Positions 23,808 through 32,584 of a DNA stretch of 56,843 nucleotides are shown here, in pieces. A program made the position numbers and the translations under genes. The DNA lies in contig JAAYOJ010000003.1 in NCBI GenBank assembly GCA_012520405.1, forward strand, positions 1-56,843. Direction: 5' to 3'. This DNA is from Peptococcaceae bacterium (GTDB lineage Bacteria; Bacillota; Desulfitobacteriia; Desulfitobacteriales; Syntrophobotulaceae). The notes beneath the pieces are model-generated. The model was given only the letters and a program-made list of their open reading frames with translations. It was not told where the DNA came from and made no database searches. Every line of letters starts with the position of its first letter. Position 1 is the first letter of the stretch.

Positions 23808-23838
23808 GATCTTGAGCTTCTGGCTCAGGATTTTTTTA
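23808..23838 (+). terminator. Rho-independent terminator after the A2M-MEMO operon
   Basis: ATCTTGAGC pairs with GCTCAGGAT across a 5-nt loop, followed by T7. Confidence 0.85.
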
Positions 23839-23863
23839 TGTGTTAAAAACTAAAAAATAATTA

Positions 23864-23881
23864 TTAGTATAGACATACTAA
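23864..23881. repeat. Perfect inverted repeat over the -35 box of the restriction operon (putative operator)
   Basis: TTAGTAT and ATACTAA are perfect 7-bp arms around AGAC. The dyad covers the TAGACA -35 element (23870-23875), so a protein bound here would block RNA polymerase. Confidence 0.6.
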
Positions 23882-23898
23882 AATATTCGTGGTACACT
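23870..23898 (+). promoter_or_regulatory. Promoter of the type I restriction-modification operon
   Basis: TAGACA (23870-23875) and TACACT (23893-23898) at 17 nt spacing, 47 nt before the first start codon and after a terminator. Confidence 0.65.
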
Positions 23899-23944: not shown

Positions 23945-25528
23945 GTGAACCCATCAATAGATATCTTTATTAACTTATTTGTTAAACGTGGCATTACCTC
24001 CCGAGAACAATTGTTGAACGAAATGTTACGCGTCAAACTTACAGCGCGAGCGGTTAAATCACAGGGGAAAACTCCGCAAGATGGAGAGCAACTTTTCCAA
24101 TTGATGAAGCAATCTACTGAAAGTACAATCCTGGGATACTTTCCGGGCGACAGAGATTTCTTTTCTTCTGTTTATAAGAGTGCCCAAGAAATTGATCTTA
24201 TTGAGTATACACTTAAACTATTCCAAAATGACCGCTTGGGACAGATATTTTCTCCGGCATATTTGACAGAATATGTTTGTAGCCAGATAGACGATGAAGA
24301 TGCTCAGTCCATACTTATTGCCGAAGCGGAAAAAAGCCTGGCGGGTCTCAAAGGTTTGGTAGAGAAGCATTCTTTAAGTAAAATAACCCTCGCCACCTCC
24401 AATGTACTTATGTTTATGCTTCTTAAGCTTGGATTTGAAGGATTTAAGAACATCACTATTCTTAATCAGTCCATATATCAGGGGCTGCTTATGGATACCC
24501 GTTTTGACTTTATCTATTCATTACCTGATTTTGGCGGCAAGATTGAAACCGTTGACCATAGCTTTATGTCCTCAAAACCGGATATTGCGGCAACCCAGAA
24601 CTTGCTTGGGCATTTATCCGACAGGGGGGTGCTGGTGACTGTACTGCCTGCTAAGATTACATTTGCCGGCGGTTCGGAAGCAAAACTGCGTGAGCATATC
24701 ATGACTAACTATCAATTGGAGGGTATTTACAGTCTTCCCGAAGGTACTTTTAAGCCCTATACTGCCATAAAAACCTATTTAATCAAAATTGGTACTGCCA
24801 AAAAAGAAAATGTGAGCGTGGGAAGTTTAGGCTATGATAATGGCCTTTATGTCGATAAAGTAAAGCTAGTGAAGACCAAAAAAATGGCTTCAAACAAGGA
24901 TTGGAGGATTGAACTCATACTCTCGGATGATGATGAGAATATCAGAAAGTATAAGACCTCAACTCTCGAAAGAGTTAAACTCCATGAAATAGCAGAGATT
25001 TTCAGGGGAAAATCAATCCTCAAAAAAGATATTAAACCTGGAAAAATTCTGGTGCTAAATATTTCAAACCTTACCGATACCGGTATTAATTATTCCAATA
25101 TGGACAGTATCGCTGAAGAAGAACGAAAAATCAAAAGATATGAACTTATAGACGGTGATGTAGTCCTATCCTGCAGGGGCTCGGCAATTAAAACGGGTGT
25201 ATATCGTAAACAAGAAAGTGTCGTTATCGCCTCGGCCAATGTTATTGTAATCAGACCTAAAAGCAAGGTTTTAAGTGATTACCTTAAGATATTCTTTGAA
25301 AGTCCTGTCGGAACAGCACTTATAAAAAGCTTTCAGCGAGGGACAAGCATTATAAATATTAATCATACTGACATTAAGGAAATGGAAATACCGCTGCTGA
25401 GTAAAGAAGAGCAAAAAGAACTGGTGGAAAAATATATAAAGGAAGTTGAGTTATATAGAGAGACTGTGGCCAGGGCGGAAAAACGTTATCTGGCAGAAAA
25501 GGAAAAAATTTATAATAGGTTAGTGTGA
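23945..25528 (+). CDS. Degenerate N6-methyltransferase domain fused to a single HsdS-type target-recognition domain
   Basis: A 527-residue protein heading the restriction operon. Residues about 90-290 follow the layout of Hsd[14 protein letters not shown] matches the F-x-TP segment, YSLPDFGGK stands where HsdM has NPPF, and the following stretch aligns by eye with the HsdM region after NPPF. No AdoMet motif I and no NPPY/F are present, so it should be catalytically dead. Residues about 335-527 are one HsdS-like TRD plus a coiled-coil helix ([27 protein letters not shown]). Start GTG 23945 with GGAAGGGGAG. It may act as an alternative half-specificity or regulatory subunit, which is inference. 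Confidence 0.8.
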
Positions 25529-25544
25529 GGAGGATAAACAAAAG

Positions 25545-27134
25545 ATGGCAACGGTAAATTTAGGATTTGAAAACAATTTATGGGAAATGGCAGATAAACT
25601 GCGTGGCAATATTGAGGCTTCGGAATACAAGCATGTTGTATTGGGACTTATTTTCCTGAAATACATATCCGACGCTTTTGAGGAAAGATATAACGAACTG
25701 CTTGAAGAAGGTGAAGGATTTGAGGAAGATATTGATGCATACACTGAAGAAAATGTTTTTTTCGTACCTAAGGAAGCCCGTTGGGAGTATATAAAAGCAA
25801 ATGCCAAGCAGCCAACGATCGGACAGATTATCGATGAAGCCATGATCGCTATTGAAAAGGAAAACGCCACCCTTAAAGGAGTACTGCCGAAAAACTATGC
25901 CCGTCCGGAAATAGATAAGACAAAACTTGGTGAACTTATCGACCTCTTTTCCTTTAAAGTTGGTGATAAGGAAGCAAGAGCAAAAGATGTTCTTGGTAGG
26001 GTTTATGAATACTTCCTTGGAAAGTTCGGTTCGTCGGAAGGAGAATTTTACACCCCACCATCTATTGTAAAGCTACTTGTTGAAATGATTGAACCCTATA
26101 GAGGAAGGGTTTATGACCCCTGCTGCGGGTCCGGCGGCATGTTTGTGCAAAGCCAAAGATTCGTTGAAGAACACAGCGGCAGAAAGGATGACATCCATAT
26201 TTTTGGACAAGAATACACTGCTACCACCTGGCGGCTTTGTAAAATGAATCTTGCTATCAGGGGTATTGACGGAAACCTTGGTGAACGGGATGCGGATACT
26301 TTTTCTAACGATCTCCACAAAATGTTGAAGGCGGATTATATATTGGCCAATCCTCCCTTTAATATTAAGGATTGGGGAGCTAACAGGTTGGCCGGTGATG
26401 TTCGTTGGAAATATGGTATGCCCCCTGTGGGAAACGCCAACTATGCCTGGATACAGCACATTATTTCCAAGCTCTCCCCAAATGGGGTAGCGGGCTTTGT
26501 TATGGCCAATGGCTCGATGTCTACCAATACAAGCAGTGAAGCGGAAATAAGGAAGAATATAATCGAAGACAAATTGGTGGATTGCATTATTACCCTGCCG
26601 TCAAATCTTTTCTATAATGTAACCATTCCTGCTTGCCTGTGGTTTTTAACAAGGAATAAAAAATCCGGAGGACGAGATCGCAGCAATGAAATTCTCTTTA
26701 TTGATGCCCGCAAGATGGGTACCATGATTGACCGCAAGCACAGGGAACTTGATTATGAGACAGAAATAAAATATATTGCCGATACTTATCGTAATTGGAA
26801 AAAAACAATTCCCCTGCCGGCTGAAATCGATAACGAACTGGACATGGTGGCTGAGACCCAGGCAGCCTATGAAATTGAAAAACTTAAAGAGAAAGAAAGA
26901 TATCGGGATATAAAAGGATTCTGCAAATCGGCTACCTTGGATGAAGTACGCTCCCATGAATATATTCTCACCCCCGGCAGATATGTAGGGATTGAAGAAC
27001 AGCCCGATGACGGGGAACCTTTTGAGGAAAAGATGACCAGGCTCACCGATGAGCTGGCTGAGATGTTTGCCAAGCGCAAGTCTCTGGAGGAGGAAATCCG
27101 CAAAAGACTGGGGGTGATCGGGTATGAGTTTTAA
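25545..27134 (+). CDS. hsdM: Type I restriction-modification methyltransferase subunit
   Basis: A 529-residue HsdM. It has the N-terminal helical HsdM_N domain ([12 protein letters not shown]), [16 protein letters not shown], AdoMet motif I in DPCCGSGGM and the catalytic NPPF at 269-272. It methylates N6 of adenine in the sequence set by HsdS. AGGAGG precedes ATG 25545, and its 3' end overlaps the rhuM-like gene by 11 nt. All catalytic motifs look intact. Confidence 0.96.
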
Positions 27135-28152
27135 AAATAATTCCGAAATATTGATGTACCAGACTGAAGACGGGAAAACGAAGATTGAAGTCAGAATGGA
27201 GGATGAGACAGTTTGGCTTTCATTGAATCAGATGGCCGAACTCTTCCAAAGGGATAAGTCTGTAATATCGTGCCATATTAAAAATGTTTTTACTGAAGGC
27301 GAATTAGATAGAAAATCAGTTGTTGCAAATTTTGCAACAACTGCGGCAGATGGAAAAACCTATAATGTGGAATATTTCAACCTGGATGTTATAATCTCCG
27401 TCGGCTACCGTGTTAAATCCCACAGGGGTACACAGTTCAGAATCTGGGCTACTCAAAGATTGAGGGAATATATAATCAAGGGCTTTACCATGAATGATGA
27501 TCTGCTGAAAAAAGCGGGCGGAGGCAATTATTTTGAAGAGCTTTTGGAGCGCATCCGGGATATTCGCTCCAGCGAAAAAGTTTTTTATCGTAAGATTTTA
27601 GATATTTATGCCACCAGTATTGACTATTCACCTAATGCAGCCATTTCACAACAGTTTTTTCAAACGGTCCAGAATAAAATGCACTGGGCGGCCCATGGGC
27701 ATACTGCGGCAGAAATTGTTTATCTGAGAGCCGATGGTTCCAAGCCTTATATGGGAATGACCAACTTTACCGGTTCTAGACCCACCAAGGCAGAATCTCA
27801 GATTGCTAAAAACTATCTTACAGAGGATGAATTGGCGGTATTAAACCGCATCGTCAACGCTTATATCGAATTTGCTGAACTTCAGGCCATGCGCAGAAAG
27901 CCCATGTACATGACCGACTGGGTAAGTAAATTAGACGAGTTCCTTAAAATGAGCGACAGTGAGATTCTTACGCACGCAGGTAAAATCAGCCACCAACAAG
28001 CCGCTAAAAAGGCAATAGAAGAGTATGACAAGTATAAGGAACGGACCAAAAATGAACTTTCCGAGGTGGAAAAGCATTTTTTAGAGAGTATAGATAAGAC
28101 TGTAAAGAAGCTGAAAGGGAAGAAGGACGGTGTCGGGGGTGATGGGAAGTGA
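27124..28152 (+). CDS. RhuM family protein within the restriction operon
   Basis: A 342-residue RhuM-family protein; the N-terminal KilA-N/Bro-like part has [18 protein letters not shown] and [17 protein letters not shown], and the C-terminus is helical and lysine-rich. The family was named for a Salmonella pathogenicity-island gene and is often found between hsdM and hsdS in type I systems; its role is unknown, perhaps DNA binding or control of restriction. It overlaps hsdM at its start and hsdS (GTGA) at its end, so it is translated as part of the operon. Confidence 0.9.
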
Positions 28153-29339
28153 GTGTTGATGGATGGAGAGAGGTAAGGCTTGGGGATGTGTGTGAAAGTG
28201 TGTCAAATACACATTCTTTTGGAAAGTCCGAGTTGATATTCCTAAATACGTCTGATGTTTATGAAGGCTCAATTTTGCATAATAAATATTCTCCTGTTGC
28301 GAATATGCCTGGCCAAGCCAAGAAAAGCATAAAAAAGGGAGATATTCTGTATAGCGAAATAAGGCCCAAAAATAGAAGGTACGCTATGGTCAATTTTGAT
28401 GCTTCAGATTATGTTGTATCAACTAAATTTATGGTTATTAGAAGTAAGGGCTTAATCGATAATAAATTCTTATATTTATATCTTACGTCAGATGAGGTTC
28501 TGGAAACTTTACAACAAGTGGCTGAAGCACGCTCTGGGACGTTTCCGCAAATTACTTTTACTCAAGTAGCAGAGTTGAATGTAAGTCTTCCTCCATTACC
28601 AGAGCAAAAGGCGATCGTCGCCACACTATCTGCCCTTGACGATATGATCGAGCTTAACAACCAAATTAACAAAACCCTTGAGGAAATGGCGCAGGCCATC
28701 TTTAAATCCTGGTTTGTGGATTTTGAGCCGTTTAAGGATGGGGAGTTTGAGAAAAGCGAACTGGGGCCGATACCGAAGGGGTGGAAAGCTGGAAGGTTAG
28801 GAGATATTGTCGATATTTTTGATTCGAAAAGGGTTCCCCTTTCGAGCCGACAAAGAAGTGTTATGGAAAAGAAGTATCCATATTATGGAGCCGCCACATT
28901 GATGGACTATGTTGATGACTATATTTTTGAAGGTGTTCATGTTTTACTAGGCGAGGATGGCACGGTGATGGATGAGAAGGGCTATCCCATTTTGCAATAT
29001 GTGTGGGGTAAATTCTGGGTAAATAACCATGCCCATGTTTTGAAAGGCAAGGGTATTTTCTCTGATGAGTACTTATATATGCTTCTTAAAAATACGAATG
29101 TAGCAAGCATCGTGACAGGAGCTGTGCAGCCAAAAATCAATCAGGGTAATCTTATTGGATTAAAAGTTATAATCCCCCCGGATGATGCAGTGAAGCAATA
29201 TAATGAAATAGTTAAGGATATTTTTGCTTGTTTGAGATCTAATGATGATGAACAAAGAGTGCTGATGTCATTGCGCGACACTCTCCTCCCCAAACTAATG
29301 AGTGGCGAAATAAGAGTACCAGTTGAAGAGGTTGTGTGA
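28149..29339 (+). CDS. hsdS: Type I restriction-modification specificity subunit
   Basis: A 396-residue HsdS with two target-recognition domains (about 1-150 and 210-350), each followed by a conserved coiled-coil helix (PPLPEQKAIVATLSALDDMI and the similar LMSLRDTLLPKLMSGE end, each family-typical). The two TRDs read the two halves of a bipartite site. The start GTG overlaps the rhuM stop by 4 nt. Both TRDs appear complete and no inverted hsdS copy is nearby that could allow shuffling, apart from the single TRD encoded in the first gene of the operon. Confidence 0.94.
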   Translation: MSVDGWREVRLGDVCESVSNTHSFGKSELIFLNTSDVYEGSILHNKYSPVANMPGQAKKSIKKGDILYSEIRPKNRRYAMVNFDASDYVVSTKFMVIRSKGLIDNKFLYLYLTSDEVLETLQQVAEARSGTFPQITFTQVAELNVSLPPLPEQKAIVATLSALDDMIELNNQINKTLEEMAQAIFKSWFVDFEPFKDGEFEKSELGPIPKGWKAGRLGDIVDIFDSKRVPLSSRQRSVMEKKYPYYGAATLMDYVDDYIFEGVHVLLGEDGTVMDEKGYPILQYVWGKFWVNNHAHVLKGKGIFSDEYLYMLLKNTNVASIVTGAVQPKINQGNLIGLKVIIPPDDAVKQYNEIVKDIFACLRSNDDEQRVLMSLRDTLLPKLMSGEIRVPVEEVV

Positions 29340-29368: not shown

Positions 29369-32300
29369 ATGCCTAGCCATAATATATATGAGGACGAGCT
29401 GGAGCAGGCGACCTTGGAATGGTTTGAAGAACTGGGCTATGAAATTGCCTTTGCTCCGGATATCTCTCCGGGCGGGGATTATCCTGAACGTTCCGACTAT
29501 TCCGATGTAATACTGGGAGAACGTCTGAAGGACGCCTTAAAGCGTATTAATCCGGATTTACCCCAGGAAGCTCTGGATGATGCCCTGCATCAAATTCTTG
29601 TGCCCCTTAATCCCGCCCTAATAGATAACAATCGTCTTTTTCAGAAGATGGTCACCGACGGGGTGAATGCTAGCTTTAGGGCCGATGAGGGCAGAATAGT
29701 CAGCAAGCAGGTCAAGGTTTTTGACTACGAGAAAGTAGAGAATAATGATTTTTTGGTTGTGAACCAATTTACCGTGATCGAAAGCAGGATTGAAAAACGT
29801 CCCGATCTGGTGGTATTTGTCAACGGCATTCCCCTTGTGGTCCTCGAACTTAAAAACTTGGCCAACGAGGACGTGGAAATATCCGATGCCTATAATCAGA
29901 TCCAAAACAATATAAGCACCATCCCATTACTCTTTACTTATAATTCTTTTGCGGTTATATCCGATGGGGTAAATGCCAGGGTAGGTACAATCACGGCCAA
30001 TGAAGACTGGTTTATGGTGTGGCGTACTATTGATGGAGAGGAGCTTGCCCCTGCAGGCCGTCCCCAGCTTGAAGTCTTAATCAAGGGTATGTTTGAAAAG
30101 GAACGTCTGCTGGATATTATTAAGAATTTTATATTATTCCAAACAGACGGAAAAGACACCTATAAAATTCTGGCCGGTTATCATCAATATCATGCTGTCA
30201 ACAAGGCAGTTGAAAGCACTATAAGAGCCGCCATCACTGAGGGGGATCGCAAAGCCGGTGTTGTTTGGCATACCCAGGGCAGCGGTAAAAGTCTTTCCAT
30301 GGTTTTCTATGTAGGCAAGCTTGTTCTGGCGCAAGAACTCAATAACCCGACAATTGTAGTGATTACCGACCGTAACGACCTTGATGACCAGTTGTTTTCT
30401 ACTTTTGCTAAATCAAAAGATTTATTACGTCAGGAGCCGGTGCAAGCTCTGGACAGAGCAGATCTTCGCAGACTCTTGGCGAGAGAATCGGGAGGCATAA
30501 TCTTCACCACCATACATAAATTTGCTCCTGAAGAAAAAGGGGACAGTGTAGCTGTTCTTACAGATCGGGAAAACGTTATTGTTATTGCTGATGAAGCCCA
30601 TAGAAGTCAGTACGGATTTGCAGCGGAAATTGTCAAAGGCGATACCGAAGCTGAGGTCAAATACGGCTATGCCAAATATATGCGGGATGCCCTTCCTAAT
30701 GCATCTTATATCGGCTTTACCGGTACGCCCATATCCCTTGTGGATAAGGATACCAGGGCAGTATTCGGCGACTATATCGATATTTATGATATGACCAGAG
30801 CAGTGGAAGACGGTACCACAGTGCGTATTTTCTATGAAAGCCGGATTGCCAAACTGGAACTACCGGATGAACTAAAGCCCGCTATTGACAGTGAATATGA
30901 AGAAATCACTGAATACCAGGAGTATACCCAAAAAGAAAAGCTCAAGTCCAAATGGTCAAGGCTTGAAGCTATCGTGGGAGCCGAGCAGCGAGTAAAAGCG
31001 ATCGCCAAAGATATTGTGGAGCATTTTGAGAAGCGGCTCGCCGCCCAGGAAAAAGAAGCGGGCAAAGGGATGATCGTAACCATGTCCCGCCGGATTGCGG
31101 TAGACCTTTATAAAGCCATTGTAGAATTGCGTCCGGACTGGCACTCTGACGATGTGGAAAAAGGCGTCATTAAGGTAGTCATGACCGGAAGCTCATCAGA
31201 TCCTAAAGAATGGCAGCCTTTCATCGGCACAAAGGCTACCCGGGACAGAATAGCCAAGCGCATGAAGGATAATGAGGATGAGCTGAAGCTGGTCATAGTA
31301 CGTGATATGTGGTTGACCGGTTTCGATGTTCCCAGCATGCACACCATGTATATTGACAAACCCATGCAAGGACATAATCTAATGCAGGCTATTGCCCGCG
31401 TTAACCGGGTGTTTGGGGAGAAGCAGGGCGGCTTGATTGTAGATTATATCGGCCTTGCCGAAAACCTGAAAAACGCCCTTAAGGATTATACCGAAAGCGA
31501 CCGGGAACAGACCGGTGTTGATACAGAACTGGCAGTAGCAGTACTCCTTGAAAAATATGAATTGATTAAGGAATTGCTCCATGGCCATGATTATCAGAAA
31601 TTTTTTACCGGCTCTGCTTCAGACAGAATGGGCGCCATTGTCGAAACCATCGACTACATTATAGGGCTGCGTGAGGAAGGCAAAAACAATTACCTTAAGC
31701 TGGTCAGCGAACTTTCCAAAGCTTATTCCCTTTGTGCTACTACCGATCCTGCTGAAAAATTAAATCTGGAAATAGGTTTCCATAAAGCAGTTAAATCCGG
31801 GATTATTAAGCTCATTCCCGAAGATTCCAAAAAGAAAACTGCTGCGGAAGTCGAGGCCCAGCTTAACCAGCTTATCTCTAAATCCATTACCAGCAATGAG
31901 GTTATCGATGTTTTGGATGCTGTTGGGCTAAATAAGCCGAATATCGCTATACTGTCCGACGATTTTTTGGAGGAAGTGCGCAACATGAAGCAGCGCAATC
32001 TTGCTGTTGAGCTCCTCAATAGGCTGCTCAAAGGCAAGGTCAAGACTTTTTCCAAGCGAAATCTGATTCAGTCCAGAAAGTTTTCAGAGCTTTTAGAAAA
32101 TGCTATCAGAAAATACCAGAACCGCACTATTGAAACCACCCAAGTTATTATGGAACTTATCCAGCTGGCTAAAGAAATCAATGAAGCCCATAAGCGTGGA
32201 GAAAAAACCGGTCTTACTGAAGATGAACTGGCCTTTTACGATGCTCTTGCCGAAAATGAGTCTGCCAAAGAGCTAATGGGTGACGAGATCCTAAAGCAAA

Positions 32301-32584
32301 TAGCTAAGGATTTGACGGAGGCCATACGCAAAAACTTAAGCATTGACTGGTCTATTCGGGCCAGTGTCCAGGCTAAAATGAAAATGGTCATAAAAAGGCT
32401 GCTTAAACGTTACGGCTACCCGCCGGATAAAACGCCTAAGGCTGTGGAAACAGTAATGGAGCAAGCTAAGCTTATGTGCCAAAACGAGAGTTCAGCTATT
32501 AAGTATCAGTACCGGCTTGCTAAAGAAGAAGTGCCAAAAGTGGCGGATGAAAGAGGAATTTCAAATTATGAGACTAATACTTAA
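29369..32584 (+). CDS. hsdR: Type I restriction-modification endonuclease/translocase subunit
   Basis: A 1071-residue HsdR. The N-terminal nuclease domain has [10 protein letters not shown] and VLELKN (PD-(D/E)xK). Walker A is QGSGKS (303-308), the DEAH box starts at D408 ([10 protein letters not shown]), and [16 protein letters not shown] and QAIARVNR are later helicase motifs. A helical C-terminal domain binds the HsdM/HsdS core. It translocates and cuts DNA lacking methylation. AAAGGAGG precedes the ATG. It ends the operon and is intact. Confidence 0.96.

Follow-up and report, generated by a model that had tools for sequence, protein, structure and literature searches.

A pseudo-methyltransferase fused to a single target-recognition domain as a probable autoregulator of a type I restriction-modification operon

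The window (the whole stretch of DNA analysed here, 56,843 nucleotides) carries a type I restriction-modification (R-M) operon headed by a gene in which a methyltransferase-like domain is fused to a single target-recognition domain, or TRD (23945..25528, + strand; 527 aa, GTG start). We find that the methyltransferase domain is dead, that the TRD is conserved, and that a conserved site lies on the predicted promoter and is associated with the gene. We consider it likely that the fusion protein is a pseudoenzyme acting as a dimeric autoregulator, probably a repressor, of the operon it heads; the restriction system appears to have built a regulator out of duplicated parts of its own, the methyltransferase and the specificity unit. 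This bears on the old question of how expression of a type I system is timed such that the DNA of a new host is methylated before cutting sets in. The best-known answer, restriction alleviation, works by proteolysis of HsdR; descriptions of transcriptional regulators of type I systems, RptR among them, are recent.

Architecture of the fusion protein and its family

The fusion gene is immediately preceded by a ribosome-binding-site-like stretch, GGAAGGGGAG. Its product consists of a helical N-terminal region (residues 1-105), a methyltransferase-like part (106-330), a TRD (~338-470) and a C-terminal helix of 40 residues (487-526). Pfam matches are confined to a partial N6_Mtase (residues 174-296, 2.9e-9) and one Methylase_S domain (residues 341-495, 6.7e-13), and no helix-turn-helix (HTH) or other regulator family was matched. 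Alignment against real HsdMs reveals that AdoMet motif I (DPCCGSGG) is deleted, with nine columns missing, and that catalytic motif IV reads LPDF (residues 193-196) in place of NPPF. These results bear out a preliminary description of the gene, which had proposed an HsdM-like N-terminal part without motif I, a replacement of NPPF, and a C-terminal part made of a single TRD and a helix. The structure prediction that it had suggested as a check agrees with this layout: a confident AlphaFold2 model (16 family members as input; pLDDT 86, pTM 0.71) combines a Rossmann-like methyltransferase fold with the TRD and the long C-terminal helix.

As for the features of an active HsdM, the N6-methyltransferase fold is present (best Foldseek matches 7eew, a type I methyltransferase, and CamA; E 1e-21 to 1e-17), while motif I (DPxxGSGG) and motif IV (N/D-P-P-F/Y) are both absent. 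An HsdS is recognised by two TRDs with conserved helices between them and by diversification of its TRDs among homologous systems; the fusion protein has one Methylase_S stretch and a TRD that has not diversified. By the tested features it is neither HsdM nor HsdS.

Relatives that are full-length or nearly so share 35-84% identity with the fusion protein and come from several genera, in about 20 genomes and contigs. Strong matches occur in 7 of 83 genomes of the class, the window's own counted, and in 9 of 398 across the phylum at E <= 1e-30; none was found in the phage collection. In every aligned member of the window's family motif I is deleted, the region carrying instead a conserved ILITEAEKHL-type stretch, and motif IV is broken, reading LPxF, VPNF and similar. 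The gene evolves under strong purifying selection, with dN/dS of ~0.17, 0.12 and 0.09 in three close pairs and similar values (0.12-0.18) for the methyltransferase-like part. Since the same lesions recur across genera and dN/dS is ~0.1-0.2, the gene is not a decayed copy, and both chance and a decaying pseudogene are ruled out. One fusion protein, on a contig labelled "Deltaproteobacteria MAG" (L005:10001-10951), looks near-identical to its Acetivibrio straminisolvens counterpart (L002) across the portion present, which reflects either recent transfer or a binning error.

The TRDs that set the restriction target in type I HsdS proteins diversify for that very reason. In fact, the two HsdS TRDs from these same operons show mean identities of only 23% and 24% across 11 core loci, whereas the fusion protein's TRD, at 71% in the same loci, is its most conserved part. 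A TRD that stays constant should have a target that cannot vary, and we therefore conclude that this TRD probably recognises a single, unchanging DNA sequence. Direct reading of the two sequences showed no recognisable counterpart, in the C-terminal tail of the fusion protein, of the HsdS central region, which is 84% conserved in these operons.

The nearest solved relative of the TRD (here residues 332-515 of the fusion protein) is Esub1 (PDB 8VSQ, 8VSR), with 29-30% identity, a target TM-score of 0.86-0.88 and an rmsd of 2.3-2.8 Å in a comparison that takes in the linker before the TRD. The likeness lies in the TRD fold; the difference is that the Esub1 structure holds the TRD part only. In 8VSR, Esub1 is co-crystallised with 'Prx', in our reading paratox, a protein of streptococcal phages. 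Binding of such a TRD by a phage protein would fit counter-defence; our search for literature on Esub1 found no paper.

Operon context and an operator-like palindrome

Behind the fusion gene lie hsdM (25545..27134; Pfam N6_Mtase 6.2e-103, HsdM_N 3.4e-28), rhuM, an optional member of the operon (27124..28152; PF13310 7.4e-112), an hsdS with two TRDs (28149..29339; PF01420 in two stretches, 1.5e-45) and hsdR (29369..32584; TIGR00348 3.1e-188, with PF11867, PF18766 and PF04313). All four genes are complete and lie on the + strand with short gaps or overlaps, and HsdM retains motifs I (DPCCGSGG) and IV (NPPF). The complete downstream set of hsdM, rhuM, hsdS and hsdR described earlier is thus confirmed.

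In most loci the fusion gene likewise heads an hsdM-(rhuM)-hsdS-hsdR operon, and its pairwise protein divergence tracks that of HsdR (r = 0.97) and HsdM (r = 0.77). In a remote branch (L048, L054, L104, L105, L107) it stands ahead of two hsdM genes. Two loci have no adjoining hsdM: in L047 the fusion gene is followed by ABC transporter genes, and in L053 by an unidentified ORF, a KilA-N gene and an hsdR fragment. The rhuM slot is apparently exchangeable, being occupied by RhuM, Bro-N, KilA-N or nothing (27124-28152 in the window; L045:15077-16039; L051:13456-14337; L053:3571-4455). The first HsdM of L048 (8035-10452) is an 805-aa protein with an ADP-ribosylglycohydrolase domain at its N terminus (PF03747, 5e-36); a second HsdM comes next, and this pair recurs in the viral-collection contigs L104, L105 and L107. 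In L106 (2335-5873) the genes lying between the fusion gene and hsdM are an unknown ORF, one whose product matches SAD/SRA weakly, and one for a Schlafen group 3 helicase-domain protein.

The genome that holds the window carries another type I hsdM (68-70% identical), within which its contig terminates (L084, contig C7). Directly upstream, in place of a fusion gene, is a gene for a 197-aa HTH_3 protein (L084:1821-2414), and the slot ahead of hsdM therefore looks as if it were a regulator slot.

The one element common to the regions upstream of the fusion genes is an inverted repeat, TTTAGTAT-N4-ATACTAAA, kept in nearly all loci with the gene. In the window it reads ATTAGTAT-AGAC-ATACTAAA (that is, ATTAGTATAGACATACTAAA; 23863..23882, + strand) and no other position in the 2.54 Mb draft genome matches the consensus with 1 mismatch or fewer. 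When 12 class A loci are aligned on the palindrome, its arms hold 1.67 bits/position versus 0.14 in the 80 upstream bases and 0.21-0.24 downstream. A sigma-A promoter predicted by consensus match alone (23870..23898, + strand; -35 TAGACA, 17 nt, extended -10 TACACT) has its -35 box inside the palindrome, and class A relatives share this geometry, often with TTGACA-N18-TATAAT. Further upstream, a consensus scan marks a terminator-like hairpin and T run (23808..23832, + strand), of a kind about equally frequent in shuffles of the region, which would separate the operon from the upstream gene.

The site varies among loci in sequence and in position. The remote branch carries a symmetric variant, TTTGGTAT-N4-ATACCAAA, in which both arms are changed, and L044 is the single exception to conservation, with a degenerate site and a spacer one base longer. 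L049, L050, L103 and the remote branch have the site upstream of the predicted -35 box and centred near -58 to -62; the -35 box starts 32-36 nt after the start of the site in L049, L050, L048 and L054, and the same layout is seen in the sequences of L103 and L105-L107. In L106 the site stands ~330 bases upstream of the fusion gene, before a short reading frame that seems to precede it. Three relatives have extended palindrome arms of at least 16 bp (L046:8100-8160, L049:6200-6255, L052:11105-11160). These outer arms are palindromic within each locus and differ in sequence between loci, and they may stem from template-switch correction or from extra selection for symmetry.

A search of 398 genomes from the phylum for the exact pattern finds the site in eight, and six of these have the fusion gene with the site directly upstream. 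The two other matches (L088, L089) lie in regions without any of these genes, and we take them as unrelated or chance. The site is kept in L047 and L053 although no hsdM adjoins the gene there, and it is absent, at <=3 mismatches, from six type I loci without the fusion gene (L082-L087), whose HsdMs share 53-73% identity with the window's and which include one that has RhuM as well (L085). As a test of prediction, the site was found upstream of the fusion gene in all five newly fetched viral-collection contigs; four of these are independent, the neighbouring genes of L104 matching those of L048 at 100%. Palindromy as such is weak evidence, in that shuffled sequences often match 7-8 bp repeats and the control locus L082 has a strong unrelated one, and the case therefore rests on the conserved sequence. 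A genome-wide regulon left no sign: at <=3 mismatches the window's own genome holds 36 matches to the site and 44 to a reversed control pattern.

The fusion gene thus shows two features of the autoregulator class (C proteins, RptR, M.SsoII), lying near the promoter of an R-M operon in most loci and being accompanied from locus to locus by a conserved operator-like site. Among the three roles put forward in the preliminary description, the regulator is favoured by this co-occurrence of palindrome and gene. The tie between site and TRD is one of association, and a host factor could bind the site.

Proposed mode of action and its alternatives

From these data we infer binding of the site by the fusion protein, its dimerisation, repression as the direction of control, and a physiological purpose, as follows. 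A type I methyltransferase, made of an M domain and half an HsdS, would have lost AdoMet binding and catalysis and kept sequence-specific DNA recognition. Because an M domain with one TRD and a long helix should pair like a half-HsdS, a symmetric bipartite target is to be expected; two copies would pair via the long helices at their C termini, in the manner of half-HsdS proteins, and the dimer would bind TTTAGTAT-N4-ATACTAAA (core AGTA-N6-TACT) at its own promoter. Bound there, the dimer would lie over the -35 box in the window and in most relatives, and since the site covers this box a block to RNA polymerase is expected. The outcome would be negative autoregulation of the entire hsdM-rhuM-hsdS-hsdR operon, with a burst of expression on entry into a new cell and a low steady level thereafter.

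The alternative that survives best, while unlikely, is that the protein binds the same palindrome and raises transcription, as an activator or dual regulator, at least where the site lies near -60. The position of the site upstream of -35 in L049, L050, L048 and L054, a layout shared by L103 and L105-L107, is indeed typical of class I activators. However, the predicted promoters are already near consensus, with 10-11 of 12 positions matching in those loci and 12 of 12 in several loci of class A, and the site of most loci extends over the -35 box, a position at which a bound dimer would obstruct polymerase. Repression thus remains our preferred direction overall, and at the loci with a site near -60 (L049, L050, L103 and the remote branch) the protein could activate, or repress by another route.

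We also regard as improbable that the dead M domain serves in sensing, by binding methylated or hemimethylated operator DNA, or a host ligand, such that the operon follows the modification state. Folds derived from methyltransferases, together with TRDs, could read base methylation, and several more distant proteins (L055, L057, L090, L108-L110) retain a motif I-like stretch beside a broken motif IV and might bind AdoMet. In the window's family, however, motif I is deleted and AdoMet binding is unlikely. Moreover, HsdS targets presumably vary, given TRDs of 23-24% identity, whereas the site is constant, which makes a target shared with HsdS unlikely.

The two other roles suggested in the preliminary description fare poorly. 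It is very doubtful that the fusion protein supplies an alternative half-specificity, joining HsdM (and HsdR) on a second target, or competes with HsdS. The protein does consist, in its C-terminal part, of one TRD and a helix, and half-HsdS proteins, natural or engineered, form active enzymes on symmetric sites; however, either role would predict a variable TRD, whereas the TRD observed is conserved and it is the HsdS specificity domains that diversify. The conserved HsdS central region is not recognisable in the tail, the fusion protein carries its own dead M domain, and the gene persists in L047 and L053 without an adjoining hsdM.

That the palindrome is instead bound by RhuM or a host regulator, the fusion protein having an unrelated role, is similarly hard to credit: the RhuM, Bro-N and KilA-N genes of these operons may encode DNA-binding proteins, but the site is present where RhuM is undetected (L045, L049, L053, L103), is absent upstream of the RhuM-containing type I operon without a fusion gene (L085), which together disfavour RhuM, and changes its sequence in step with the branch of the fusion protein.

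Known systems and a wider family

C proteins are small HTH autoregulators of type II R-M operons. They share with the fusion protein the transcriptional autoregulation of an R-M operon that we propose for it, and differ in that the fusion protein matches no HTH family; they are also treated in PMC12255303. By analogy, the closest functional counterpart would be RptR (RMS-proximal transcriptional repressor), which belongs to type I R-M islands; this four-helix protein of 9 kDa recognises TAGCTA repeats of 6 bp at the -10 box (PMC12255303). Similarly to the fusion gene, rptR is the first gene of a type I operon and is conserved together with its site, and RptR represses its own promoter (PMC12255303). 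In contrast, the fusion protein is a 527-aa derivative of a methyltransferase and half-HsdS, and its site, a bipartite palindrome of 20 bp, falls either on the -35 box or upstream of it.

M.SsoII is a methyltransferase that regulates its own R-M system as a dimer on a regulatory site (PMC6100179, PMC3978073). It is, however, an active cytosine-5 enzyme with a separate N-terminal regulatory region, whereas the fusion protein is dead and its TRD would read the operator. The pairing of single-TRD units has precedents in EcoR124INT, a half-HsdS with the symmetric bipartite site GAAN7TTC (PMC2877798), whose geometry resembles AGTA-N6-TACT, and in M.AhdI, which is M2S2 (PMC2878638); unlike the fusion protein, both work with active M subunits and methylate. 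In the literature searched, which took in few subscription papers, we found neither a dead type I M-TRD fusion acting as regulator nor a methyltransferase-derived type I regulator. If our reading is true, HsdS-type TRDs can act as the DNA-binding domains of transcription factors, and genes annotated 'N-6 DNA methylase' would be reclassified, their products being probably unable to methylate.

Proteins of 600-650 aa annotated 'N-6 DNA methylase' and carrying one TRD also precede hsdM/hsdS on plasmids of Lactococcus, Lactobacillus and Salimicrobium, and in L108 and L110. In all seven longer relatives inspected motif IV is broken and a motif I-like stretch is kept. The Lactococcus locus has a TTAGTAT-N5-ATACTAA palindrome near the start codon and a similar one ~140 bases further upstream; in a de novo palindrome test by shuffling, which covered the wider superfamily, only L057 and L109 gave a clear positive, and we regard these palindromes as suggestive. 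As a tentative proposal, the window's family may be a branch of a large, unrecognised superfamily of head-of-operon M-TRD pseudoenzymes acting as TRD-based transcription factors, with members in these three genera and other Bacillota, among which AdoMet-binding versions would be sensors of cofactor or modification. Were this so, the specificity machinery of restriction enzymes would have been the source of the regulators that control them. The Lactococcus plasmid type I locus (L057:10723-14050) further holds a tyrosine recombinase and two extra hsdS pieces, one of them inverted, possibly a specificity-switching cassette.
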